Both the position numbers and the translations under genes were made by a program. A stretch of 64,000 bases of DNA. Origin: a virus. The notes under the pieces were generated by a model. The model searched no databases. It had not been told where the DNA came from and saw nothing but the letters and a program-made list of their open reading frames with translations. Within the stretch, counting starts at the first letter, position 1. The number at the start of each line of letters is the position of its first letter. The stretch covers positions 53,990 to 117,989 of IMG/VR virus record IMGVR_UViG_3300001373_000001; one strand, written 5' to 3'. Shown piece by piece: positions 2,321 through 29,272 of this stretch.

Positions 2321-5300
2321 ATGAGATATAATAACTACCATAAGCATACACACGAGTCAAATATTAAAACTTTAGATTGTGTAGTCAAACCAATTGACTA
2401 TATTAAACATAGCCTTAATTTAGGTCATACAAGCTATTCTAGCGTTGAACATGGTTGGACTGGTAAATACATGTTAAATTATGATTTATGTGTAGAAAAT
2501 GGATTAAAATTGATATATGGAGTAGAAGCATACATTGTATTAGATAGATTCCAAAAAGATAAGTCTAATGCACATATAATTATTATAGCCTTAAATAGAT
2601 TTGGATTTAAGCAATTAAATTTAATGCTGTCAGAAGCAAATAAGACTGGTCTATACTATAAAACTAGAATAGACTTGGAATTATTACTTAAACTTAATCC
2701 AGATGATTTTATAGTCACTACAGCTTGCTTGGGTGGAATAGCAAATGCTAAATATAATCTAGACTTTATTGATCCAATCCATAATCATTTCGGGAACCAT
2801 TTCTATTTAGAGATTCAAAATCATATATCAAATGAGCAAGCAGAATTAAATACTAGACTCCATAAGCTATCAATTGATAGGAATATAGAGCTAATACATG
2901 CAAATGATAGTCATTATATATTAGGATCAGATAGTAAGTATAGAGATTTATTATTGAAAGGCAAAGGCATAAATTACGCTGTAGAAGATGGATTTAAGCT
3001 TGATTATCCAGATTATGATGTTATATTAGATAGATATAATAAACAAGGTGTATTAGCCTCTAAAACGGTAATTAAAGCTATACAAAATACATTGATATTT
3101 GATAACTGTGAAGATTTGAAATTTAATAAAGAAATTAAGATGCCAGCTTTCAAATGCAATGATACTACAAAAGAACTCAAAAAGATATTGAACAAAAAAT
3201 ATAAACAATCTGATGATAGAGATGTTTCTAGGAATAAAGAATATATAAAGTGTATTAAAGATGAACTTGATATAATAGTTAATACAAATATGCAAGATTA
3301 TTTTTTGTATAACGAAAAGATAATTAGAGTTTCAAAAGAAGATTATAACTTAGTTCTAACTAGAACAGGAAGAGGGTCGTGCGTAAGTTTTTATTTAAAT
3401 AAACTATTAGGATTCACAGAGATTGATAGACTTGTAAGCCCTATAACTCTATATCCTACAAGATTTATGTCAATTGAAAGAATATTATCTACTAAGAGTT
3501 TACCAGACATAGACTTTAATTGTGCCAATGTAGAACCAGTTGTAAAAGCTTCTAAACAAATTCTTGGCGAGAATGGTATTTATCAGATGATTGCTTTTGG
3601 TACTATGCAGAAGTCAGAAGCATTTCGAAACATGTGTAGAGCATTAGATTTAGATATAGAATTATATAATGAAGTTGCAAAAGACTTAGATCAATATTCA
3701 GAACATCCAGATTGGAAAGATATAATTGAATCATCAAAAGTATTTATTGGTACTATAGACAAGATATCTCCAGCGCCATGTTCTTATCTAATGATGGATA
3801 AGGATATATCAGAAGAGATTGGATTAATCAGAGTAAATAATCTTATTTGTTGTGCAATGGATGGAATGACCGCAGAAGTATTTAAATACCTCAAGAACGA
3901 CTTCTTAGTAGTAAAAGTATGGGATATAATATCTAAAACTTTTGAGGCTATAAACAAGCCTATACCCAATATCAAGCAACTAGAAGAATTACTTGATAAT
4001 AAAGTTTGGGATTTATACGAAAATGGTCTTACAGCTACACTAAACCAAGTTGAGACACAGTTATCAACAGGATTAGTCAAACAATATAAGCCTAAAAGTG
4101 TAGCAGAACTTTCAGCATTTGTTGCTTCTATTAGACCAGGATTCGCAAGTCTAGTGAATAAATTTATATCTAGAGAATACCATACAACAGGTATCAAAGA
4201 ATTAGATGATTTATTAGAAGATAGTTACCATTATATGTTATACCAAGAATCTATCATGAAATTTCTAATATGGTGTGGTATAAAGGAATCTGAGACATAC
4301 GACATCATCAAAAAGATTGCTAAAAAGAAATTTAAAGAGCATGAATTAATAGAGCTTAAAACTAAACTAATAAATGGATTTAAGGCTAAAACAAATGAAG
4401 TTGATAAGTTTAATGAAGTTTGGCAAGTAGTAGAAGATGCAGCCAATTACAGCTTTAATGCTAGTCATAGTTTATCTGTAGCATATGACAGTTTATACCA
4501 AGCTTATCTTAAGGCTAATTATACTATAGAATATTTTACTGTTTGTTTAAATATTTTCAAAGAAGACTTAGAGAAGACCAACAGGATAATAGATGAATTA
4601 GATCATTTTAATATAAAATTATTCTCGGTTGATTTTGAGCATTGCAATGATGATTATTCATTTGATAAAGAAACTCAGACTATTTATCGAAGTGTATTGT
4701 CTATTAAAGGTTTTGGAGAAAAGACTAATATTAGTTATATAATTAATAAGCTTAACAAGAATAAATTTGATGATTTCATAGACTTACTAAATGCATTGAT
4801 AGAGAATGGGTTACAACAATCAAAGATCAATATATTAATCAAACTTAACTTCTTTAAAAAGTTTGGAGATATTAATTACTTACTAGAAGTATCTAGAATA
4901 TATAATCTATATAATACTACTAAGATACTATCAAAAGAGAAAATTGAGAAAGCTAATTTAAATATAGAAATTGTTAAAAAGCACTTTAAAAAAGAGACTG
5001 AAAAAAGCTATTCAGATATAGAATCCAATGTAAATTTTATTAAAGATATTTGTATAGATATAAAATATGAAAATTCCGATATAATAGATATTATACAATA
5101 TGAAATGCTTTACTATGACATGATTACAAGTACATTCAAGATTAGCAAATCAGTATATTATGTTCAAGATATTTTAGGAAAAAAGTCTAAAACTATTAAA
5201 TGCTATAATCTTAAAACTGGTAAAACAATTATGTTTAAATTAGATTATAGAGTAATATTTAATTCCAAAAAGAATATGTATAATTATAATAAAGTGTTAA

Positions 5301-5888: not shown

Positions 5889-6161
5889 CTATATATAACT
5901 ACCAACTATATTCTTATCATCATTATGTTGTCTAGGCATAAATACTAGACCATGTGATTCGAAATAAGATTTACAAACATTTAAATCTTCGAATTTCTTA
6001 ATTGTACTAGTAGTTTTTACACTTCCTTTACTTACTTCAAATAATCTTGATACTATGCTTTCTGGATAGTCTAAAGGTTGCTTATATATAGCATATATGT
6101 ATATAGTATTATTTGTATTATTACATATTATTATATCTTGTTTTTCAATGTCACCTTGCAA
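5889..6161 (-). CDS. Small protein of unknown function, TTG start
   Basis: 90 residues. The start codon is TTG, supported by GGAAGGTG 8 bases upstream on the minus strand. No ATG alternative fits that site. The sequence contains an Ile/Tyr-rich N-terminal strand region (about 10-28) and a SKGSVKTTSTIKKF segment that could be part of a helix-turn-helix or nucleotide-binding loop, but no family is recognised. It is the only leftward gene on this side of the recU gene and is transcribed away from the inverted repeat at 6288-6322. Confidence 0.55.
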   Translation of the reverse strand: MQGDIEKQDIIICNNTNNTIYIYAIYKQPLDYPESIVSRLFEVSKGSVKTTSTIKKFEDLNVCKSYFESHGLVFMPRQHNDDKNIVGSYI

Positions 6162-6287
6162 ATTTTATTCACCTTCCTTTCTATTTCATATTACTACAAC
6201 CAAAACTTTTTTTCAAATTAACTTTTTTGGTTAAATTGTTTTGGTATAAATTTAATAATTAATTTAATATGTTTATTGAAAGATATG

Positions 6288-6322
6288 AACCTATGAACTT
6301 ATATATTAAATATTCATAGGTT
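6288..6322. promoter_or_regulatory. Perfect inverted repeat, candidate operator
   Basis: AACCTATGAA and TTCATAGGTT are perfect 10-bp arms with a 15-bp A+T-only centre. The repeat sits in the 256-bp gap between the leftward gene ending its start at 6161 and rightward recU at 6418. That position suits a repressor operator controlling divergent transcription. Confidence 0.45.
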
Positions 6323-6417
6323 TACATCTATTTTACAATAGTCTATTGACTAAGTGTATTAATTTAACATAAAGTCCATCGACTTTGCGTTAAAAAAATA
6401 AATTAGAGGTATTTTAT

Positions 6418-6915
6418 ATGAATGTTGGTAAAAACTTTGAGAATCAGTTTAGGAAATCAGTTCCAAAAGATGTACTATATTACAGAAATAAAGATACCGA
6501 CCTATCTTGGTGTGGTGGTAATAGTAAGTTTACTCCAAAAAGTGAATTTGATTGTTTATTATTTGATGGATATAATTTATTTATATTAGAACTTAAGTCT
6601 ACTAAAGAATCAAGGATAAGTTTTGGAGATAACGGAATGATTAAGACCCACCAGATCAGATCATTAAATTCTTATTCGCACTATAAAAATTGTATTTCTG
6701 GATTTATATTTAATTTCAGAGATAATTCAAACTTTACTTGTTTTTTGAGCGTTCGAGATTTTGATATGATAACAACAGATACCGAGAAGAAATCAGTTAA
6801 TATTAAAGAGATCGCCAAATATTGTATTCCAATAGATAATAAACTACTTAGAATACAGTATTCATATGACATAGCAGGATTTTGTTTGAAATTTGCTGAA
6901 AATATTAATGTTTAA
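6418..6915 (+). CDS. recU: RecU-like Holliday junction resolvase / restriction-fold nuclease
   Basis: 165 residues. The N-terminus has GKNFENQFRKSVP followed by YYRNKD. The nuclease core is the pattern E-x-D-C-L-L-F-x-G-x-n-L-F-I-L-E-L-K-S-T (about residues 41-60), as in RecU and related PD-(D/E)xK enzymes: Asp and Glu-x-Lys bind the metal. RecU resolves Holliday junctions during recombination and replication. An AGAGGT site precedes the ATG. The gene stands alone between an inverted-repeat control region and a strong terminator hairpin. It is slightly shorter than chromosomal RecU (about 200 residues), as is usual in phages. Confidence 0.8.
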   Translation: MNVGKNFENQFRKSVPKDVLYYRNKDTDLSWCGGNSKFTPKSEFDCLLFDGYNLFILELKSTKESRISFGDNGMIKTHQIRSLNSYSHYKNCISGFIFNFRDNSNFTCFLSVRDFDMITTDTEKKSVNIKEIAKYCIPIDNKLLRIQYSYDIAGFCLKFAENINV

Positions 6916-6976
6916 TAGGTTAGAATCTTTAAATTGTCCAGAGAATTTTACATTTTTGTAGTATTTTTACAGATAT

Positions 6977-7027
6977 GTACATAAAAAAAGCAATATCAAA
7001 TATATATTACTTTTTTCAACTATGTAC
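6977..7027. terminator. Bidirectional terminator between recU and the CRISPR locus
   Basis: Outer arms GTACATA / TATGTAC enclose AAAAAAG / CTTTTTT and AATAT / ATATT, giving a long stem with U-rich sides in both directions. It can end recU mRNA rightward and the cas12f-array transcript leftward. Confidence 0.6.
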
Positions 7028-7053
7028 AAACTAATATGTTTACATTAGTTATC

Positions 7054-7312
7054 TGCTTTCAATATAGCAATTATTAGCTTCAATTCTAACAAATTAGTAA
7101 AGCTTAGTATCGTTTCAATGTACAATTGTTTAATATTTTCAACTGTTTCAATAATAGCAATTGTTGTCAACTAACCGTCAAGTAACCGTCAAGTAACCGC
7201 ATGTTTTCAGCTTTCAATATACAATTGTCGTTTATGTCTGCTTGCAACATAGCAATTATTAAATCTAAATTAATATCAGTTTCAATATACAATTGTTTAA
7301 ATATTTTCAACT
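7054..7312 (-). repeat. Decayed CRISPR repeats at the distal end of the array
   Basis: At least six degenerate copies of the array repeat core (tttcaa-ta-CAATTG) start near 7055, 7112, 7145, 7210, 7240 and 7279. They form about three units of 60-65 bp: 7112-7171, 7210-7271 and 7279-7342, the last running into the first perfect repeat. Within the stretch, TAACCGTCAAG is tandemly repeated at 7172-7193 with a partial third copy to 7200. The side facing away from the cas gene is the expected place for old, decaying repeats. Alternatives are a partition-type iteron cluster for the nearby ParA, or anti-repeat RNA sequence. Confidence 0.6.
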
Positions 7313-7603
7313 GTTTCAACATAACAATTGTTGTTTGCAAACTAATTAAGTTGAATTCAATTTAAATTAATGGTTTGCAGTTTCAACATAACAATTGTTG
7401 TTTGCAAACCACATACTAACAAAACAAAAGTTAAAACTCGAACGTTTCAACATAACAATTGTTGTTTGCAAACGCAGAAATAGTTGGTAATGGTAGTAAA
7501 AAAACAAGGTTTCAACATAACAATTGTTGTTTGCAAACACTGCATTTTTCGATTATTAACCATCCACCATAATGTTTCAACATAACAATTGTTGTTTGCA
7601 AAC
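7313..7603 (-). CRISPR. CRISPR array: five identical 30-bp repeats, four spacers
   Basis: Perfect 30-bp repeats lie at 7313-7342, 7380-7409, 7444-7473, 7509-7538 and 7574-7603. On the plus strand each starts GTTTCAACAT, has AACAATTGTT in the middle and ends GTTTGCAAAC; the last two blocks are perfect palindromes. Spacers are 7343-7379 (37), 7410-7443 (34), 7474-7508 (35) and 7539-7573 (35). I infer leftward transcription: on the minus strand the repeat ends TTGAAAC as is usual for repeat 3' ends, it follows the cas gene, and decay is at the far end. Spacer 2 equals 13709-13742 in the holin gene. Spacer 4 matches 28571-28605 in a tail gene at 33/35. No cas1/cas2 adaptation genes are present. 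Confidence 0.97.
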
Positions 7604-7829
7604 GCTTTTCGAAACTAGCTTTCAAAAATTACAAAACCTCTAACTAATCATTACAACTAGCTTTTAAGATTTTGTTCCAAGTACAATTGCATTTTGCTAT
7701 CCAAGTGGATAGGGTGTCTATATAGTTCTTGGAAACTCAATAGACTTAACGAGCGGAAGCCAACTACCAAGTAGAATTACGACGAATACTCGCTTTTAGC
7801 CGCCAAATCGGCTTAAGTACTATTATATA
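7604..7829 (-). ncRNA. Candidate tracrRNA / guide scaffold between cas12f and array
   Basis: This 226-bp gap holds no gene but is locally richer in G+C and hairpins. Two are perfect: AGCCG-6-CGGCT (7798-7813) and CTATCC-4-GGATAG (7697-7712). On the minus strand AGCGAG pairs with CUCGUU further on (with one G-U). The layout (cas gene, structured RNA, array, all leftward) is that of type V-F loci, where a tracrRNA is encoded here. Possible anti-repeats on the minus strand are the GAGTTTCCAAGAAC segment (about 7738-7725) and the GCAATTGTAC segment near 7690-7681. I cannot decide between them without folding. RNA ends are inferred, not seen. Confidence 0.6.
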
Positions 7830-9101
7830 TTACTTTTTATTTTTTTTCAACTTCTTTTTTATTATTTCTTGATTATCTGGGTTGGAAATATTTTTAGCAG
7901 CATTATAATCTGCATCAAGTTTTACTCCACAATTAACACAAACAAATTCATCTCTTTTTACTCTATTGTCTTTATCTGTATGCCCACACCCACTACACTT
8001 TTGACTAGTGTATCTTGGGTTTATAAGTTTAACTTCAATTCCAACTTCATCAGCTTTGTATTTAATCTTTTCTTGTAAATCGAAATAGCTCCAATCTTTA
8101 AGAAATAACTTATCTTTTTTAATATTTGATAAGTCTTCCATCTGTATTATTTTACAGTTATTCTTAACTGCTAATCCTACAATATATTTAGAATATTTAT
8201 GGTTAATCAAATCTTTAAAATTAGCTATTTTCTTTCTCACAACTCTTACATATTTAGACCTATGTTTATATCCTCGACCTTTTATAGCATCGCTTTTTAT
8301 GCTAGATTGCAAAGACTTTAATAAAGATTCTTGTTTCTTTCTAAAGCTGTCTATTTCGCCTCCTCTTATGTGATATCTTTTTAAATTATTATTAAATGCC
8401 ATATAAGCAGCATTTACTATTCCCATGTCTATACCCATTATATTTTTATCACTTAAAAGTAACTCTTTCTTTTCCATACAATATGTTAAATTAATGAACC
8501 ATTTATTCTTACTAAAAATTATCATTGAAGCTCCGATTTTATACTCTCCAGATAGCACGCTTTCAATTATTTTCTTTTGGTAATTACCATCAACTTTAAT
8601 TTCTACGCAAACATGGCAACTACCTTCGTTTCTTGCAAATAACCTTAAGTCTACATAATACTTATTTTCATTTTCAATAACTTCTATGCTCTTAGAATGT
8701 AAATCTATAATACTATTTTTATAAGATGGAATAGACATCTCACCTTTTAAAAACTTCTTCTTACTATCATTCCATTTCTTGCAACCTCTTTGAATAGAAG
8801 TTGAAATATTAGCTTTCGATAGCATTGGGTATTCGGTTCTGATTACTTTATCACAATACCCACTAAAAGATTTGTATCCTAATATACTTAATATATCTGG
8901 TTTACACTCATGTTTGATATAATAATCCGAACAATAATTATTCCATTCCCAATTTAATCTAATTGTTTTGTTCAATACTTTTTGTGTTTGGTCTTGAAAC
9001 TCCACAAGTTGTTTCTTAAAATCTTTGAAATCTATACCCTCAGAATCGATTATCTGAAAGCGCATCACTTTATTTATTGTATCAATTTTTATTTCGTCCA
9101 T
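7830..9101 (-). CDS. cas12f: Compact type V-F CRISPR effector (Cas12f-like nuclease)
   Basis: 423 residues, the size of the smallest Cas12f proteins. RuvC-I is GIDMGI (Asp225) and RuvC-II is QMEDLS (Glu322). A Cys4 zinc finger follows (Cys369, 372, 388, 391). RuvC-III is DADYNAAKNI (Asp396/398). All catalytic residues look intact. The segment KGRGYKHRSK (about 274-283), after an R-x-H-I region, resembles the Gly-x-Gly basic motif between RuvC-I and -II in Cas12f. The enzyme would cut double-stranded DNA guided by tracrRNA:crRNA, probably as a dimer. GGAGG lies before the ATG and overlaps the stop of the upstream gene, so it is the third gene of the parA operon. A TnpB transposon nuclease is the alternative, but the adjacent true array and lack of transposon ends favour Cas12f. 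Confidence 0.87.
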   Translation of the reverse strand: MDEIKIDTINKVMRFQIIDSEGIDFKDFKKQLVEFQDQTQKVLNKTIRLNWEWNNYCSDYYIKHECKPDILSILGYKSFSGYCDKVIRTEYPMLSKANISTSIQRGCKKWNDSKKKFLKGEMSIPSYKNSIIDLHSKSIEVIENENKYYVDLRLFARNEGSCHVCVEIKVDGNYQKKIIESVLSGEYKIGASMIIFSKNKWFINLTYCMEKKELLLSDKNIMGIDMGIVNAAYMAFNNNLKRYHIRGGEIDSFRKKQESLLKSLQSSIKSDAIKGRGYKHRSKYVRVVRKKIANFKDLINHKYSKYIVGLAVKNNCKIIQMEDLSNIKKDKLFLKDWSYFDLQEKIKYKADEVGIEVKLINPRYTSQKCSGCGHTDKDNRVKRDEFVCVNCGVKLDADYNAAKNISNPDNQEIIKKKLKKNKK

Positions 9102-9102
9102 C

Positions 9103-9516
9103 TCATTCCTCCAGCATATTGTATATACAAAGTATGGACATATTAGCTACTTGACTTTTATTTACACCCCATTTTTTAGCAAGGTGTATTGTCAAATCAT
9201 TAACGGAATTGAGCATATTGAATGATACATGTGTTGTATCTTTATTCTTCTTTATTCTATTATATGCAGTTCTAACATCATCAATATCTTTTATTTTAAA
9301 TTTCAAATCTTCAAAACTTGTTTTTTTATCAATTAATTTATTAATTTTCAATAAATCTTCTTGACTCAAGTTTTGTAAGTTTTCTATAATATTATCTATA
9401 GAAGTTTTAATTATAATCTTCTCTTTAATATTTTCTTGAGTTTTATTTTTTTTTGGATAATTAGCAGCTTGTTCTATATCTATATCTACGCCTTCATTTT
9501 TATTCTTCTTATTCAT
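9103..9516 (-). CDS. Small basic protein, probable ParB-type partner of ParA
   Basis: 137 residues from the ATG at 9516, which is preceded by GAGAGG at a proper distance. An in-frame ATG at 9531 lacks a site. The N-terminal 90 residues are charged and probably disordered or coiled. The C-terminal 40 residues (HVSFNMLNSV, then AKKWGVNKSQVANMSILCIY) look like a ribbon-helix-helix or related DNA-binding fold, as in small plasmid partition proteins. It starts inside the end of parA and stops 1 base before the cas12f start codon region, so the three are one operon. Function as centromere-binding protein is inferred from context. Confidence 0.6.
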   Translation of the reverse strand: MNKKNKNEGVDIDIEQAANYPKKNKTQENIKEKIIIKTSIDNIIENLQNLSQEDLLKINKLIDKKTSFEDLKFKIKDIDDVRTAYNRIKKNKDTTHVSFNMLNSVNDLTIHLAKKWGVNKSQVANMSILCIYNMLEE

Positions 9517-10288
9517 TTTCATACCTCTCATTAATTTTTTTTATAACTTCATTTGTCAATTTTGCATATTGTCTGGATATTTCTAATTTATTATCAAATA
9601 ATTCTATAGGAATACTTAGTTCTTGAGATCGTATAATATTAACAGATTCAGATAATATTGTATTAAATATTTGGTTACTATCAAAATATTCGCTCATCTT
9701 TTCAAAACATTTTTTTGTTAAAGTTGTCCTTTTATTTGCTCTAGTTAATACAGTTCCCAATATTTCCAAATCGCTATTAGTATTATTTCTAATATCGTTA
9801 ACTAAATTTATAATCCTGTTAATACCTTCAAATGAAAATATTCCCACATCTATTGGTATTATTAAGTAATCGCATGCTGATAGAACATTTAAAGTTGCTA
9901 TTCCCATTGTTGGTGAACAATCAAATAAAATAAATTTATAATCATCTTCTACCTCAGATATTCTTTTTTTGATTATCAATTCTCTAGCTAAATAATTTGA
10001 AAAGTCTAGATCGATGGAAGTAAGTTCCAAATGACTTGGTATCAAATCCAGATTATCAAACTTAGTTTTTAGTATTGCATCTTTAATTCCTATTTCATTT
10101 TTAAGAACACTGTAAATATTTCTATCTTTGTGAGATTCTTTTTTAGTATAAATTCCTTGACTTAAATTTGCTTGGCTATCCATATCTACTAATAATGTTT
10201 TATACTTTTTAGATAAATTATATCCAATATTAATAGTACTGGTAGTTTTAGCAGTGCCTCCCTTTTGGTTAAACATAGCTATTTTCAT
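9509..10288 (-). CDS. parA: ParA-family partition ATPase
   Basis: 259 residues. The deviant Walker A motif is KGGTAKTT near residue 9. Walker A' is LLVDMDSQAN and Walker B is FILFDCSPTMG. The rest has the ParA/Soj length and pattern (LIPIDVGIFSFEGI, ILGTVLTRANKRT). ParA ATPases move plasmid copies apart along the nucleoid, so this gene argues for an extrachromosomal plasmid prophage state. GGGAGATG precedes the ATG. It heads a leftward operon with the small DNA-binding protein and cas12f. Confidence 0.93.
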   Translation of the reverse strand: MKIAMFNQKGGTAKTTSTINIGYNLSKKYKTLLVDMDSQANLSQGIYTKKESHKDRNIYSVLKNEIGIKDAILKTKFDNLDLIPSHLELTSIDLDFSNYLARELIIKKRISEVEDDYKFILFDCSPTMGIATLNVLSACDYLIIPIDVGIFSFEGINRIINLVNDIRNNTNSDLEILGTVLTRANKRTTLTKKCFEKMSEYFDSNQIFNTILSESVNIIRSQELSIPIELFDNKLEISRQYAKLTNEVIKKINERYENE

Positions 10289-11250: not shown

Positions 11251-12423
11251 ATGATAAAAATTAAAAGATACAAAGCAGAAGATTTAATTAAAAATAAATT
11301 TTATGAAATGCCTAAATTTTTACTATATAATGAGTTTAAAGGTTTATCTTATGGTGCTAAGATATTATATGTGTTACTTAAGGATAGACATAAATTGAGT
11401 ATGAAAAACAATTGGGTGGATAAATATGGATATATATATCTAATTTATACACGAAAAGATATGGCTAAAATGTTAAATTGTTCCGAACATAGTTCTATAA
11501 AATATGCTAAAGAATTAATAAAATATAAACTTATTGAAGAAGATAGAATTGGTTATAATCAATCAAATAGAATATATTTAACAGAAATTACCATAGATAT
11601 ATACTCCAAACACACTGATATCAAGGACATGAACAAATTGCAGTATGGACATGAAGAAAGTTCATGTCCGGACATGAAGAAAGTTCAACCTAATAAGAAT
11701 AACTTTAATAATAATAATTCTACTAAGAATAAATCTGTCTGTTCTGAATCAAAAGATGAACAATCGTTCGAACAAAAAACAGAAACAGACAGACAGACAG
11801 ATATTGACATAAAAAATGATTTATTGGAAAAGGTTAACATCAACCTAAAAAATGACAAAAAAAAGGATTCATCAGCAAATACTAATGAAAACCTAAAAAA
11901 TGACAATAAAAATTGTTTGGGTAAAGATCTTAAAATCAACACATTAAGCTATCCAATCAATTTTATTAAACAACATTTTAAGTTTAATGAGCTGATAAGT
12001 CAACCACCAATACAAGATGAGATTTTTGCAGAGTTGCATAAAATATTAAATTATAAGTCTCAAACCATTAAGATTGGCGCCAAGATACAAGATGAAGACA
12101 TTGAGATATTTAAACAAAAGCTTATGAAACTTACACCAGAAGACATACAAAATGTGGTAAATAAGGTCTTAGAAGTTGCAAATAAAGAATATGTTCAACA
12201 TCCAGACTTGCTAATAAGGACTAAGATATACTACCAGTTTAAATCTAGCATTAAGGCACTATCTAAAAACAATGCAAAAAGGAAACCAAAAGAACCTATA
12301 CCAACAGTCAATAACATACCACAAGTACCACAGGAACGTAATTATGAGCAAAGAGAATACACAAGTGAGTACCTTGAAAGCTTTTATGAAAATTATTGGG
12401 ATAAACATACTAAACCAGAATAA
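11251..12423 (+). CDS. repA: RepA_N-family plasmid replication initiator
   Basis: 390 residues. Residues 15-115 match the RepA_N winged-helix domain: FYEMPKFL, GLSYGAKILYVLLKDRHKLS, NNWVDKYGYIYLIYTRKDMA and a recognition wing ending NQSNRIYL. The middle (about 130-230) is Asn/Lys/Asp-rich and probably disordered. The C-terminal third is the variable, host-specific domain of this family. RepA_N proteins initiate theta replication of low-copy Gram-positive plasmids. An AAGGAG site precedes the ATG. With parA opposite and repeats on both sides, this is the episome's replicon. Its presence next to a full late region is the main evidence for a phage-plasmid. Confidence 0.88.
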   Translation: MIKIKRYKAEDLIKNKFYEMPKFLLYNEFKGLSYGAKILYVLLKDRHKLSMKNNWVDKYGYIYLIYTRKDMAKMLNCSEHSSIKYAKELIKYKLIEEDRIGYNQSNRIYLTEITIDIYSKHTDIKDMNKLQYGHEESSCPDMKKVQPNKNNFNNNNSTKNKSVCSESKDEQSFEQKTETDRQTDIDIKNDLLEKVNINLKNDKKKDSSANTNENLKNDNKNCLGKDLKINTLSYPINFIKQHFKFNELISQPPIQDEIFAELHKILNYKSQTIKIGAKIQDEDIEIFKQKLMKLTPEDIQNVVNKVLEVANKEYVQHPDLLIRTKIYYQFKSSIKALSKNNAKRKPKEPIPTVNNIPQVPQERNYEQREYTSEYLESFYENYWDKHTKPE

Positions 12424-12427
12424 TAAA

Positions 12428-12912
12428 CGATTTAGAGGCTAAATAAGACGTTTAAATATCTAGAGGTCCAATTATACCATTTTGTCATTTAAAGAGCTTT
12501 ATGACCCATACAGACGTCAAATTAGACCATATATGATGTGGTATAAACATAATCGATTTATTGCTGCTGCTATTAACATAAAATATTAATGTTAATGACA
12601 AAAATAAGGACATAATAAAATTAAGCGATTTAAAGGCTATTTAAGACATTATAATTTCTAGACACAAATTTATATGATTTTAGCATTTAAACTCGAATAT
12701 GGGCAAACAGACGTTAAATAACACTATTCTGGATGGGGTAATAGCATTAAAAGATATTAAGACATATTAAACATTTTATTAAAATATATTGCGAAGCGTT
12801 ACAAAGCGATTTAAGACAGTTTAACTTTTGAGAGGTCAAATTATATCACTATGCACTAAAAATATCGTGTATGGGCAAGGAAACGTTAAATAGACCTATT
12901 CTGAAATGAGAA
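12428..12912. repeat. Three long degenerate repeats downstream of repA (candidate origin)
   Basis: Units of about 110 bp start at 12428, 12626 and 12807. Each begins CGATTTA, followed in the first two by AGGCTA, and ends with an (A/C)AGACGT(C/T)AAAT-like element (third copy: GAAACGTTAAAT). Spacing is 198 and 181 bp. This 501-bp stretch (12424-12924) has no gene apart from the small one that follows. Long imperfect repeats beside a rep gene suggest an origin or incompatibility locus. A related motif lies at 43541-43588. Confidence 0.5.
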
Positions 12913-13430: not shown

Positions 13431-13769
13431 CTACTTAGTTTTTGGTAATTTAAATACATTACTTTCGATTAAAGTTTTAATCAACTTATCAAATCCGTTT
13501 TTCTTACTTAAACCAAGTCTACTTGTCATTTCAAGAACTATATCAAATGCATTCTTGAATCTATCAATATTTTTATCATTCTTGTATAATTGTTCTGATA
13601 GGTTTACAGCATGTCCTACGATCGATTCTAGAGCCTTAATCTTATCCAAGGTCAAATTATACCTTGATTTATATAAGTCTTTTAAATACAAGAATAACGT
13701 GTATAGAACACATACTAACAAAACAAAAGTTAAAACTCGAACGGAATTATTCATTATTAACGCATACAT
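13431..13769 (-). CDS. Holin, LL-H type
   Basis: 112 residues. One N-terminal membrane helix (about residues 9-29, VLTFVLLVCVLYTLFLYL) is followed by a charged helical region with KALESIVGHAVNLSEQ and NGFDKLIKTLIESNV. This matches the layout of the phage holin LLH family. It would permeabilise the membrane to release the endolysin encoded just upstream. GGAGAG lies 8 bases before the ATG. It is the last late gene. Codons 8-18 are identical to CRISPR spacer 2 of this genome (13709-13742). Confidence 0.8.
   Translation of the reverse strand: MYALIMNNSVRVLTFVLLVCVLYTLFLYLKDLYKSRYNLTLDKIKALESIVGHAVNLSEQLYKNDKNIDRFKNAFDIVLEMTSRLGLSKKNGFDKLIKTLIESNVFKLPKTK
13709..13742 (-). other. Protospacer identical to CRISPR spacer 2 (34/34)
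   Basis: All 34 bases of spacer 2 (7410-7443) recur here, inside the membrane-helix codons of the holin. On the coding (minus) strand the flank 5' of the protospacer reads AATTCC and the 3' flank reads TTCTAT. With leftward array transcription the crRNA has the same sense as the mRNA, so it would pair with the template DNA strand and not with the holin mRNA. Confidence 0.95.
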
Positions 13770-27229: not shown

Positions 27230-29272
27230 TCATAATCTATATGCATGATAGTCATATCTTGCATAAGTTATACCATTGACAGAAAATATTTCATATGATG
27301 GATAAGAACTCGTTAGTTTACCATAATATATATTGTCTGCAACATAAGTATATACTTTATCAGCAGGAGTATCTTGGCAGAAATATCTTTTACCCATCAT
27401 TACAGCATTATAACCCATATAATAATACCCATTTCCATATACGTCACTAACTAAACTTTGCTCAGTACTAGCTATTTTAGTAGCATCATTTATACATCCC
27501 TTAACAACAAAAACTTCTTGACCATCGTGAATTCTAGTAGCACTAAAATCTCTATATAGCGGATAAGCACTATTAATATCTGAAAATGGTAACATATACT
27601 GACCATTTAATCCATCGATAACTTTAAACTTTACAGTATAGTTACTATTGTCAATATAGAAGAATAATTCACCCATGTAAAAAGCTTGGATTGATTCATT
27701 ACTTGGAAGTCTAACAGATACATCTATGATCTTTTGTACAGCAATAGAACGTGCCATTCGAATACTAATACCATTCTTAGTTAGACTAGCGTAGTTAGTT
27801 GTTAAATTACTTGCAAGTGCATCATCGCAATAAAAATTAATTGTCCAACCTAGCAAGTCTTGAAACATTGTAGCACAAGTATTTACAACTCTAGAATTAA
27901 TACTTTTTCCTGCTTCGGATGTAGTAATTCTAGCTGTTGTAATGCCATAAGAATCTGTTCCTGCACTAGTACTTAAAACAGTTTTAACACCATAAACATA
28001 ATCATCATTTTTCATGCTAGAAACTACATTGAAATTATATCTATTTGAACCAGTGCCAGTAAATACTTTAATGCTTCTAGCACGTTTGAAAGATGAATCA
28101 TAGTAATATAATTTAGATTTTTCACCAAGACTTATAACAGGAGGAGTAAAATTAGGATATCCGTCATTATAAGCGTTAAGATACCAACACGTTGTAAAAT
28201 CCCATCCAACAAATGTTGATTGAGTTTTCATTTCAGAAGTTGTTTTAGGAGTTGCATAAAGTTCTGGAAATATACAAGTATCTGAGTTATAATAACAAGA
28301 TGTCATAACAATTGGTGGATCGCTTATAGCACCAAGAAAAGCTCCAGGCTCTTCTTCCGTTAATTCGGTTTGATTTGTATAATTAAGTACACAATAGCTA
28401 TTAATATAAGTGTTATCATAATAGGTAAATGGTACAAATCCTGCTACAAAGCGAGGATTGATTGTAACTATTAGATTACAAATAGAAAAACAGTTTATAA
28501 CATAAATAGCATCAAGTTCAGAAGCAAAACCGCCAGTATATCCATATTGACAAGTAATTGTTGAAACAGAACTACATTTTTCGATTCTTAACCATCCACC
28601 ATAATTTACAAATCCACCAAAAGAATCTATACCACCAAAAGTTGCTGTTGAATGACAATTTTCTATATAGTTATATTCTTCAAAATTAGCACTCCATCCT
28701 TCGCAACCTCCAATAAATCCTCCGACATTATAAGGTAATTTTGAACCAGTATTGTTAATTATAAGACTTGTAGTACAATCTTTTATATAACTAAATGTAT
28801 TACTTGGATAAAACTCACCAGACAAACCTCCAATTGTACTAGGGAAATAAACATTACAATTTGAGTTTATAGTTAAACTTGTAGTTATGTTTTCAATTTT
28901 ACCAGAATAAATACCACCCGCTAATGCACCTAATTTCAAAACTGAATCAGTCCAAGTTGCATCATTTAAATTTATTATAGCATTTTCTATATTAATATTC
29001 TTTATAGTATAAGCTGTTGTAATATCACTAAATAGCCCCCAATACCAAGTATCAAATGGATTCATAACTAGATTAGTGATTTTAAATCCACCGCCATCAT
29101 ATCCTCCTGTAAATTCTCCACCAATTGGCGACCAACTTGGGTAATCACTTAAGTCAATATCAGCTGTCTGTAAGAAAAATGATGATAAATAATTTCTAAC
29201 ATAGTTTAATTGTATTGAATTGCTTACAAGGTATGGATCAAACTCCGTACCAGTACCGCCATCAAAAGACAT
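27230..29272 (-). CDS. Tail adhesin with beta-helix (GLUG-like) N-terminal domain
   Basis: 680 residues. The N-terminus (about 1-370) starts GGTGTEFDPYLVSNSIQL, then ADIDLSDYPSWSPIGG and FTGGYDGGGFKITNL. That series is typical of right-handed beta-helix adhesins with GLUG-like repeats. From about 385 (KLYYYDSSFKRARSI) a second domain is shared with the neighbouring 320-residue protein, ending in EIFSVNGITYARYDY. AGGTGAT precedes the ATG. It is a host-recognition candidate. Codons at 28571-28605 match CRISPR spacer 4 of this genome at 33/35. Confidence 0.7.
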   Translation of the reverse strand: MSFDGGTGTEFDPYLVSNSIQLNYVRNYLSSFFLQTADIDLSDYPSWSPIGGEFTGGYDGGGFKITNLVMNPFDTWYWGLFSDITTAYTIKNINIENAIINLNDATWTDSVLKLGALAGGIYSGKIENITTSLTINSNCNVYFPSTIGGLSGEFYPSNTFSYIKDCTTSLIINNTGSKLPYNVGGFIGGCEGWSANFEEYNYIENCHSTATFGGIDSFGGFVNYGGWLRIEKCSSVSTITCQYGYTGGFASELDAIYVINCFSICNLIVTINPRFVAGFVPFTYYDNTYINSYCVLNYTNQTELTEEEPGAFLGAISDPPIVMTSCYYNSDTCIFPELYATPKTTSEMKTQSTFVGWDFTTCWYLNAYNDGYPNFTPPVISLGEKSKLYYYDSSFKRARSIKVFTGTGSNRYNFNVVSSMKNDDYVYGVKTVLSTSAGTDSYGITTARITTSEAGKSINSRVVNTCATMFQDLLGWTINFYCDDALASNLTTNYASLTKNGISIRMARSIAVQKIIDVSVRLPSNESIQAFYMGELFFYIDNSNYTVKFKVIDGLNGQYMLPFSDINSAYPLYRDFSATRIHDGQEVFVVKGCINDATKIASTEQSLVSDVYGNGYYYMGYNAVMMGKRYFCQDTPADKVYTYVADNIYYGKLTSSYPSYEIFSVNGITYARYDYHAYRL
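28571..28605 (-). other. Protospacer matching CRISPR spacer 4 (33/35)
   Basis: Spacer 4 (7539-7573) differs here at only two bases (28574 and 28587). In the adhesin frame these are a third-position Cys TGT/TGC change (synonymous) and a second-position Arg-to-Ile change. This is the pattern of a homologous gene from a related phage. Read from the end that would abut a 5' PAM (minus-strand flank TTTGTAA), the first 18 bases match perfectly. Confidence 0.95.

Follow-up and report, generated by a model that had tools for sequence, protein, structure and literature searches.

A Cas12f1 CRISPR locus on a phage-plasmid, probably aimed at sibling phages, with guides that match the carrier's own holin and tail-region genes

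The window analysed here, a stretch of 64,000 nucleotides at the end of virus record IMGVR_UViG_3300001373_000001 (117,989 bp), carries plasmid, replication and phage functions side by side. A RepA_N plasmid replication initiator (11251-12423, plus strand; Pfam E 3.3e-23) and a ParA of the AAA_31 family (9509-10288, minus strand; Pfam E 2.3e-50) are accompanied by genes for DNA polymerase III alpha, dUTPase and ThyX, and by holin, amidase, tail, portal and terminase genes; the carrier element is a phage-plasmid of the RepA_N type. Downstream of RepA_N, short imperfect repeats at 12462-12903 (RGACGTYAAATTARACCA-like, families D4 and D9) may represent an iteron-like plasmid origin. The terminase shares 28.8% identity with those of SPbeta-like phages and has relatives of about 50% identity in two genomes of one Clostridiaceae family, the lysis and tail-tip genes of which are unrelated to those of the carrier. 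Because of these terminase relatives and the 28% G+C of the carrier genome, a host within the Clostridiaceae is likely.

The effector gene of the CRISPR-Cas locus, cas12f1 (7830-9101, minus strand), encodes a 423-aa protein, P0001, which is recognised by PADLOC as Cas12f (E 3.1e-119). It starts 1 nt after a small gene (9103-9531, minus strand) that was assigned to the position of ParB by its location only, a Pfam search of this gene having returned no convincing family, and by position parA belongs to the same transcription unit. The one-base distance to the ParB-position gene suggests that cas12f would be expressed jointly with the partition functions in the plasmid, or plasmid-prophage, state. 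Among PDB chains, those of AsCas12f1 are the closest to P0001 (E 1e-95), with OsCas12f at E 1.7e-84, the SpCas12f1 chain 9i8y at E 1.9e-52 and chain 9nzp, identified with RhCas12f by length and by the accompanying paper, at only E 6.9e-26. P0001 has the compact size (about 400-550 aa in this type), tri-split RuvC and zinc ribbon by which type V-F1 effectors are recognised: the RuvC residues D225, E322 and D398 are all kept, and the CxxC...CxxC cysteines of the zinc ribbon are present (Pfam Cas12f1-like_TNB, E 4e-23). Judged from its sequence, the nuclease looks intact and is presumably active. In the tree, P0001 is placed among As-type relatives and not within the Clostridium branch, the support for this being modest (89/90), and its best identity to any relative is 44%. 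P0001 also passes NCBIfam's broad guided_TnpB model (187 bits). A TnpB of an IS605/IS607 transposon was considered and rejected, as a CRISPR array and a Cas12f-type tracrRNA are present and the neighbours are the ParB-position gene and ParA, with no TnpA.

The CRISPR array (7313-7603, minus strand) adjoins the effector, its five identical 30-nt repeats, GTTTGCAAACAACAATTGTTATGTTGAAAC in the crRNA sense, lying 226 nt downstream of cas12f. They separate four spacers, all read on the minus strand: spacer 1 (37 nt, 7343-7379), spacer 2 (34 nt, 7410-7443), spacer 3 (35 nt, 7474-7508) and spacer 4 (35 nt, 7539-7573). Beyond the array, at its far, trailer end, decayed repeat-like units of repeat families D3 and D17 can be discerned by eye (7056-7312, minus strand), as is expected for an ageing trailer end. 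Between cas12f and the array lies a conserved tracrRNA core (7741-7816, minus strand), the best match in the 64 kb to a covariance model, R1, that was built from 17 relatives with the window excluded (18.2 bits, E 0.004); an Rfam scan over the CRISPR locus gave no match. A promoter-like site, TTGAAA-17-TATAAT (7822-7850, minus strand), ends 6 nt before the core and agrees with 11 of 12 consensus bases, this being a consensus match only in a region that holds 38 such sites, compared with 28.1 in shuffles. The best repeat/anti-repeat duplex with the intergenic region reaches -13.0 kcal/mol, and 43 of 200 shuffles were as low. The loci of AsCas12f1 and SpCas12f1 have the same gene-tracrRNA-array order (PMC8548392), and the terminal bases of the repeat, ...GTTGAAAC, resemble those of the SpCas12f1 repeat, ...GATTGAAAC (SpCas12f1 locus L048); together these features support the minus strand as the crRNA strand. 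With Cas12f1, tracrRNA and array, and no adaptation genes, this is a complete-looking type V-F1 CRISPR-Cas locus. Beside the array, a 165-aa ORF (6418-6915) has no Pfam family and a faint PADLOC match to CARF_PDDEXK (E 0.002), and is possibly a small nuclease.

Two of the spacers match the genome that carries them. Spacer 2 agrees in all 34 of its bases with positions 13709-13742 (minus strand), and the match grows to 35/35 when the first base of the repeat is included, a G that is also present after the protospacer. The protospacer covers codons 10-21, in the first membrane helix, of a 112-aa holin gene (Holin_LLH; 13431-13769, minus strand; Pfam PF09682, Phage_holin_6_1, E 3.4e-7), which sits just upstream of an Amidase_3 endolysin. 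This identity with the membrane-helix codons of the holin was reported in a preliminary description of the sequence and is confirmed here; the self-matching is larger than stated there, as a match of spacer 4, absent from that description, was also found. Spacer 4 matches 33 of 35 bases at 28571-28605 (minus strand), within a 680-aa ORF of the tail region (27230-29272, minus strand; no Pfam family, weak PHROG 30905); counted from the PAM side, positions 19 and 32 are mismatched, and these two differences point to a variant of the carrier's own copy as its source. For comparison, the 117,989-bp genome was randomised 40 times with a third-order Markov model and the best matches of the two spacers were collected; for spacer 2 the mean was 22.3/34 and the maximum 24, and for spacer 4 the chance best was 22.9 and the maximum 25, which rules out chance as the origin of the self-matches. 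Spacers 1 and 3 have no match anywhere in the carrier's own record at the DNA level, and at the peptide level nothing above shuffles was obtained against its own genome. An assembly artefact, named in the preliminary description as the outcome that would undo the observation, is unlikely: misassembly through the 35 bp shared by array and holin is hard to reconcile with the repeats on both sides of the spacer and with a holin frame that stays open through the match, and the contexts of both array and holin are coherent.

Considering how such a genome might tolerate its own guides, the bases beside the self-sites are of most interest. The PAM is YTTN for AsCas12f1 and TTC for SpCas12f1 (PMC8548392), and YTTH for OsCas12f1 and NCCD for RhCas12f1 (PMC10090079), such that the known Cas12f1 PAMs demand TT or CC at -3/-2. 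The PAM position of protospacer 2 reads TTCC (13743-13746, minus strand) and that of protospacer 4 reads GTAA (28606-28609, minus strand), neither of which fits YTTN, TTC or NCCD; both flanks have T at -3, the only base common to them, and a base other than T at -2. The 5' flank AATTCC given in the preliminary description is the correct one for the crRNA (minus) strand, and homology bears out its caveat that these bases might not act as a PAM. In the opposite array orientation, which was rejected, the flanks AGAA and CAGA fit no PAM either, and the repeat end, gene order and tracrRNA favour the minus strand. A T-rich, YTTN-like PAM is likely for the carrier's Cas12f1, because P0001 groups with As-type relatives outside the Clostridium branch and is akin to AsCas12f1 and OsCas12f1. 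Cutting at the carrier's own sites would, under this PAM assigned by homology, not be expected, since TTCC and GTAA fit no known Cas12f1 PAM, and it is only under the same assignment that the carrier can be said to be spared by changes at its own sites (TTCC and GTAA versus TT or CC at -3/-2). With a single change at -2, the holin site would read TTTC, Ser9 (TCC) becoming Phe (TTC), and the site in the tail-region gene would read GTTA, a silent change of a Val codon from GTA to GTT; this one-base distance to a PAM is a property of the sites and no proof of escape mutations. NTTN precedes 12.8% of positions in the carrier genome, so two PAM-less sites would arise by chance with a likelihood of about 76%, and the absence of a PAM at both is not improbable by itself.

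For comparison with relatives, 59 Cas12f loci were fetched, plus plasmid and phage loci; 218 spacers from 31 arrays were tested within their own loci, and the arrays of five relatives were searched against their own whole genome or record. Boundaries were assigned to the spacers by an automatic procedure, and in some arrays with short repeat calls (e.g. L021, L037, L044) repeat bases remain in the spacers. Four of the five arrays searched against the relative's own genome or record gave no self-match. Among the relatives, one further self-match at a non-array site was found, for spacer 5 of L022 (39/40; flank TTTG; mismatch at spacer position 1). This locus belongs to a Ca. Fermentithermobacillaceae MAG, and the spacer matches the RBS and start of a small ORF that immediately precedes cas12f in this locus (matching pair 2306-2345 and 4488-4527), for which autoregulation or the targeting of a sibling cassette is possible. 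The three self-matches observed each deviate either at the PAM or in base 1 of the spacer, a pattern that is suggestive with n=3. Spacer 4 of L022 (32-160 vs 4430-4450) ends in CATGTGGGCAGGTTG, near CATGTGGGCAGCTTG at the contig start, and by eye is possibly a partial self-match. As a separate observation, the Cas12f proteins of L035, L036, L038 and L042 have lost the first and last Asp of RuvC, and in L010 (Ruminococcus albus plasmid pRUMAL01) and L046 the first is replaced by Asn; on these sequence grounds all of them are probably nuclease-dead.

The preliminary description had proposed a search of related phages for the same protospacer beside another flank, and none was found in IMG/VR or in the phage and plasmid collections, from which records very near the window may be absent. 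The holin and the 680-aa protein gave no match in IMG/VR, codon-degenerate patterns of spacers 2, 3 and 4 found nothing there, the array spacers gave weak chance matches only in the phage and plasmid collections, and the repeat end gave one chance match within a phage gene (L082). Two of the four spacers thus match the carrier's own lineage, no sibling with these protospacers, or with a protospacer beside a good PAM, came from any of these collections, and for this reason the target of the weapon is one that we infer. No Cas1 was found in the whole 117,989-bp record, therefore the spacers must originate elsewhere.

We consider it probable that this V-F1 locus is used against closely related phages and that the PAM spares the carrier. 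The resident element would deploy its Cas12f1, tracrRNA and four-spacer array against near-identical rivals, the effector being made together with the partition genes in what would be the plasmid-prophage state. Spacers 2 and 4 would most likely have been taken, by acquisition in trans, from siblings with identical or nearly identical holin and tail-region genes and a T-rich 5' PAM, and the carrier, retaining the same protospacers with TTCC and GTAA where YTTN is expected, would have its own DNA neither opened nor cut. This reading is likely because a useful spacer needs a PAM-bearing source, because spacer 4 has two mismatches, and because there are documented cases of virus-borne arrays against sibling viruses in which point mutation or deletion has altered the carrier's own sites (PMC6858448). 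In addition, BoNT phages are reported to bear arrays directed against one another, and also to carry Cas14a genes (PMC8473940).

Both the targeting of sibling phages and a self-regulation of lysis had been put forward in the preliminary description; the former is favoured by the intact-looking nuclease, the lack of fit to any known PAM and the two mismatches of spacer 4, and the latter found no positive support in the window. For lysis to be self-regulated, Cas12f1-crRNA would bind the carrier's own holin (and tail) genes uncut and damp late transcription, for instance in the plasmid-prophage state. Both self-matched genes are indeed late genes, the holin protospacer is near the start codon, cas12f, judged by its position, shares a unit with the partition genes, and in L022 a spacer matches DNA just upstream of that locus's own cas12f, but the RuvC residues are intact, duplex binding is not expected at sites that both lack a PAM, no promoter is known under either, and spacer 4 is inexact to its own target. 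The crRNA, moreover, is sense to the mRNAs of both the holin and the 680-aa ORF, with which it cannot pair, so that antisense control of holin mRNA is rejected in the supported array orientation. In CreR-like autoregulation a guide partly matches the cas promoter; upstream of cas12f no seed of at least 9 nt with an NTTN PAM was found for spacers 1-4, and the sole YTTN seed match, of spacer 3 at 6737, is inside another ORF. With PAM-less sites, no convincing seed and PAM near cas12f and a crRNA sense to the holin mRNA, self-regulation of lysis appears quite unlikely. A related proposal, that the guides are kept on purpose and Cas12f1, guided by full-length matches to PAM-less sites, acts on the carrier's own single-stranded holin or tail DNA during replication or recombination, or represses weakly, and so tunes or times lysis, seems very improbable to us; AsCas12f1 and SpCas12f1 do cut single-stranded DNA without a PAM (PMC8548392).

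An active system might also be tolerated by other means, viz. an anti-CRISPR, expression timing, repair from many plasmid copies or a novel PAM, which we regard as unlikely. The shared T at -3, and the divergence of an enzyme at most 44% identical to any relative, the PAM of which is assigned by homology, leave some room for a novel PAM, and some prophages are known to escape autoimmunity caused by their own defence through the timing of their life cycle (PMC11087260); against this, all the characterised Cas12f1 proteins cited need two defined PAM bases at -3/-2, and timing gives no protection to DNA that the lysogen carries at all times. The least probable of the readings is an inert or decaying locus, its spacers derived from the phage itself and harmless since nothing is expressed or processed. 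The decayed repeats at one end, the weak repeat/anti-repeat pairing, and the small number of spacers with no adaptation genes would agree with it, but the full-length 423-aa ORF retains all catalytic residues and zinc-ribbon cysteines, the five repeats are identical, the tracrRNA core is conserved with an 11/12 promoter match ahead of it, and decay confined to one end is normal ageing.

The locus can be set beside several known systems. AsCas12f1 of Acidibacillus sulfuroxidans (V-F1/V-U3; PDB 7wju, 8j12) is alike in size, domain order (with the E 1e-95 match extending over residues 10-419), gene-tracrRNA-array order, conserved tracrRNA core and absence of adaptation genes, whereas the carrier's protein is only about 40% identical to it, sits on a phage-plasmid beside parA and RepA_N, and is served by an array in which two of four spacers match the carrier itself. 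The mini-CRISPR arrays of SPV1 and SPV2 (PMC6858448) are likewise virus-carried, with spacers that match their own lineage and own sites altered such that self is not cut; unlike the carrier, however, SPV has no cas genes and uses the host effector, and its own protospacer is mutated or deleted, where the carrier retains its protospacer in full (34/34), the PAM position alone being unsuitable. A study of phages of Clostridium novyi sensu lato and of PICI-like islands (PMC8473940) reports V-F/V-U (cas14a) effectors and arrays on mobile elements of Clostridiaceae and phage-array spacers directed at related phages, but these phage arrays are at partial type I-B loci, and in the sections seen no perfect match to a phage's own holin is mentioned. 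Alicyclobacillus phage MMB025 (PV686781; L013:5763-5933, 5998-7341) also bears a full-length Cas12f (34% identity) with a small adjacent array; in this case the Cas12f is annotated as a transposase, and a search over 100 kb of the 105-kb phage found nothing that matches the spacers of the array.

Most likely, then, this phage-borne V-F1 locus for inter-phage conflict, its carrier spared by the PAM, belongs to a known kind, and the retention of a perfect self-target is what is unusual: one phage genome holds both a nuclease guide and its perfect 34-bp target. Self and rival would be distinguished by two bases beside the target, and PAM-based discrimination among sibling phages becomes directly testable. 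If the guides were instead to regulate the holin, they would represent a new mode of lysis control. On the favoured reading, targeting of sibling phages, inter-virus CRISPR conflict would extend to a self-contained miniature effector, and Clostridiaceae phage-plasmids are indicated as carriers of Cas12f.
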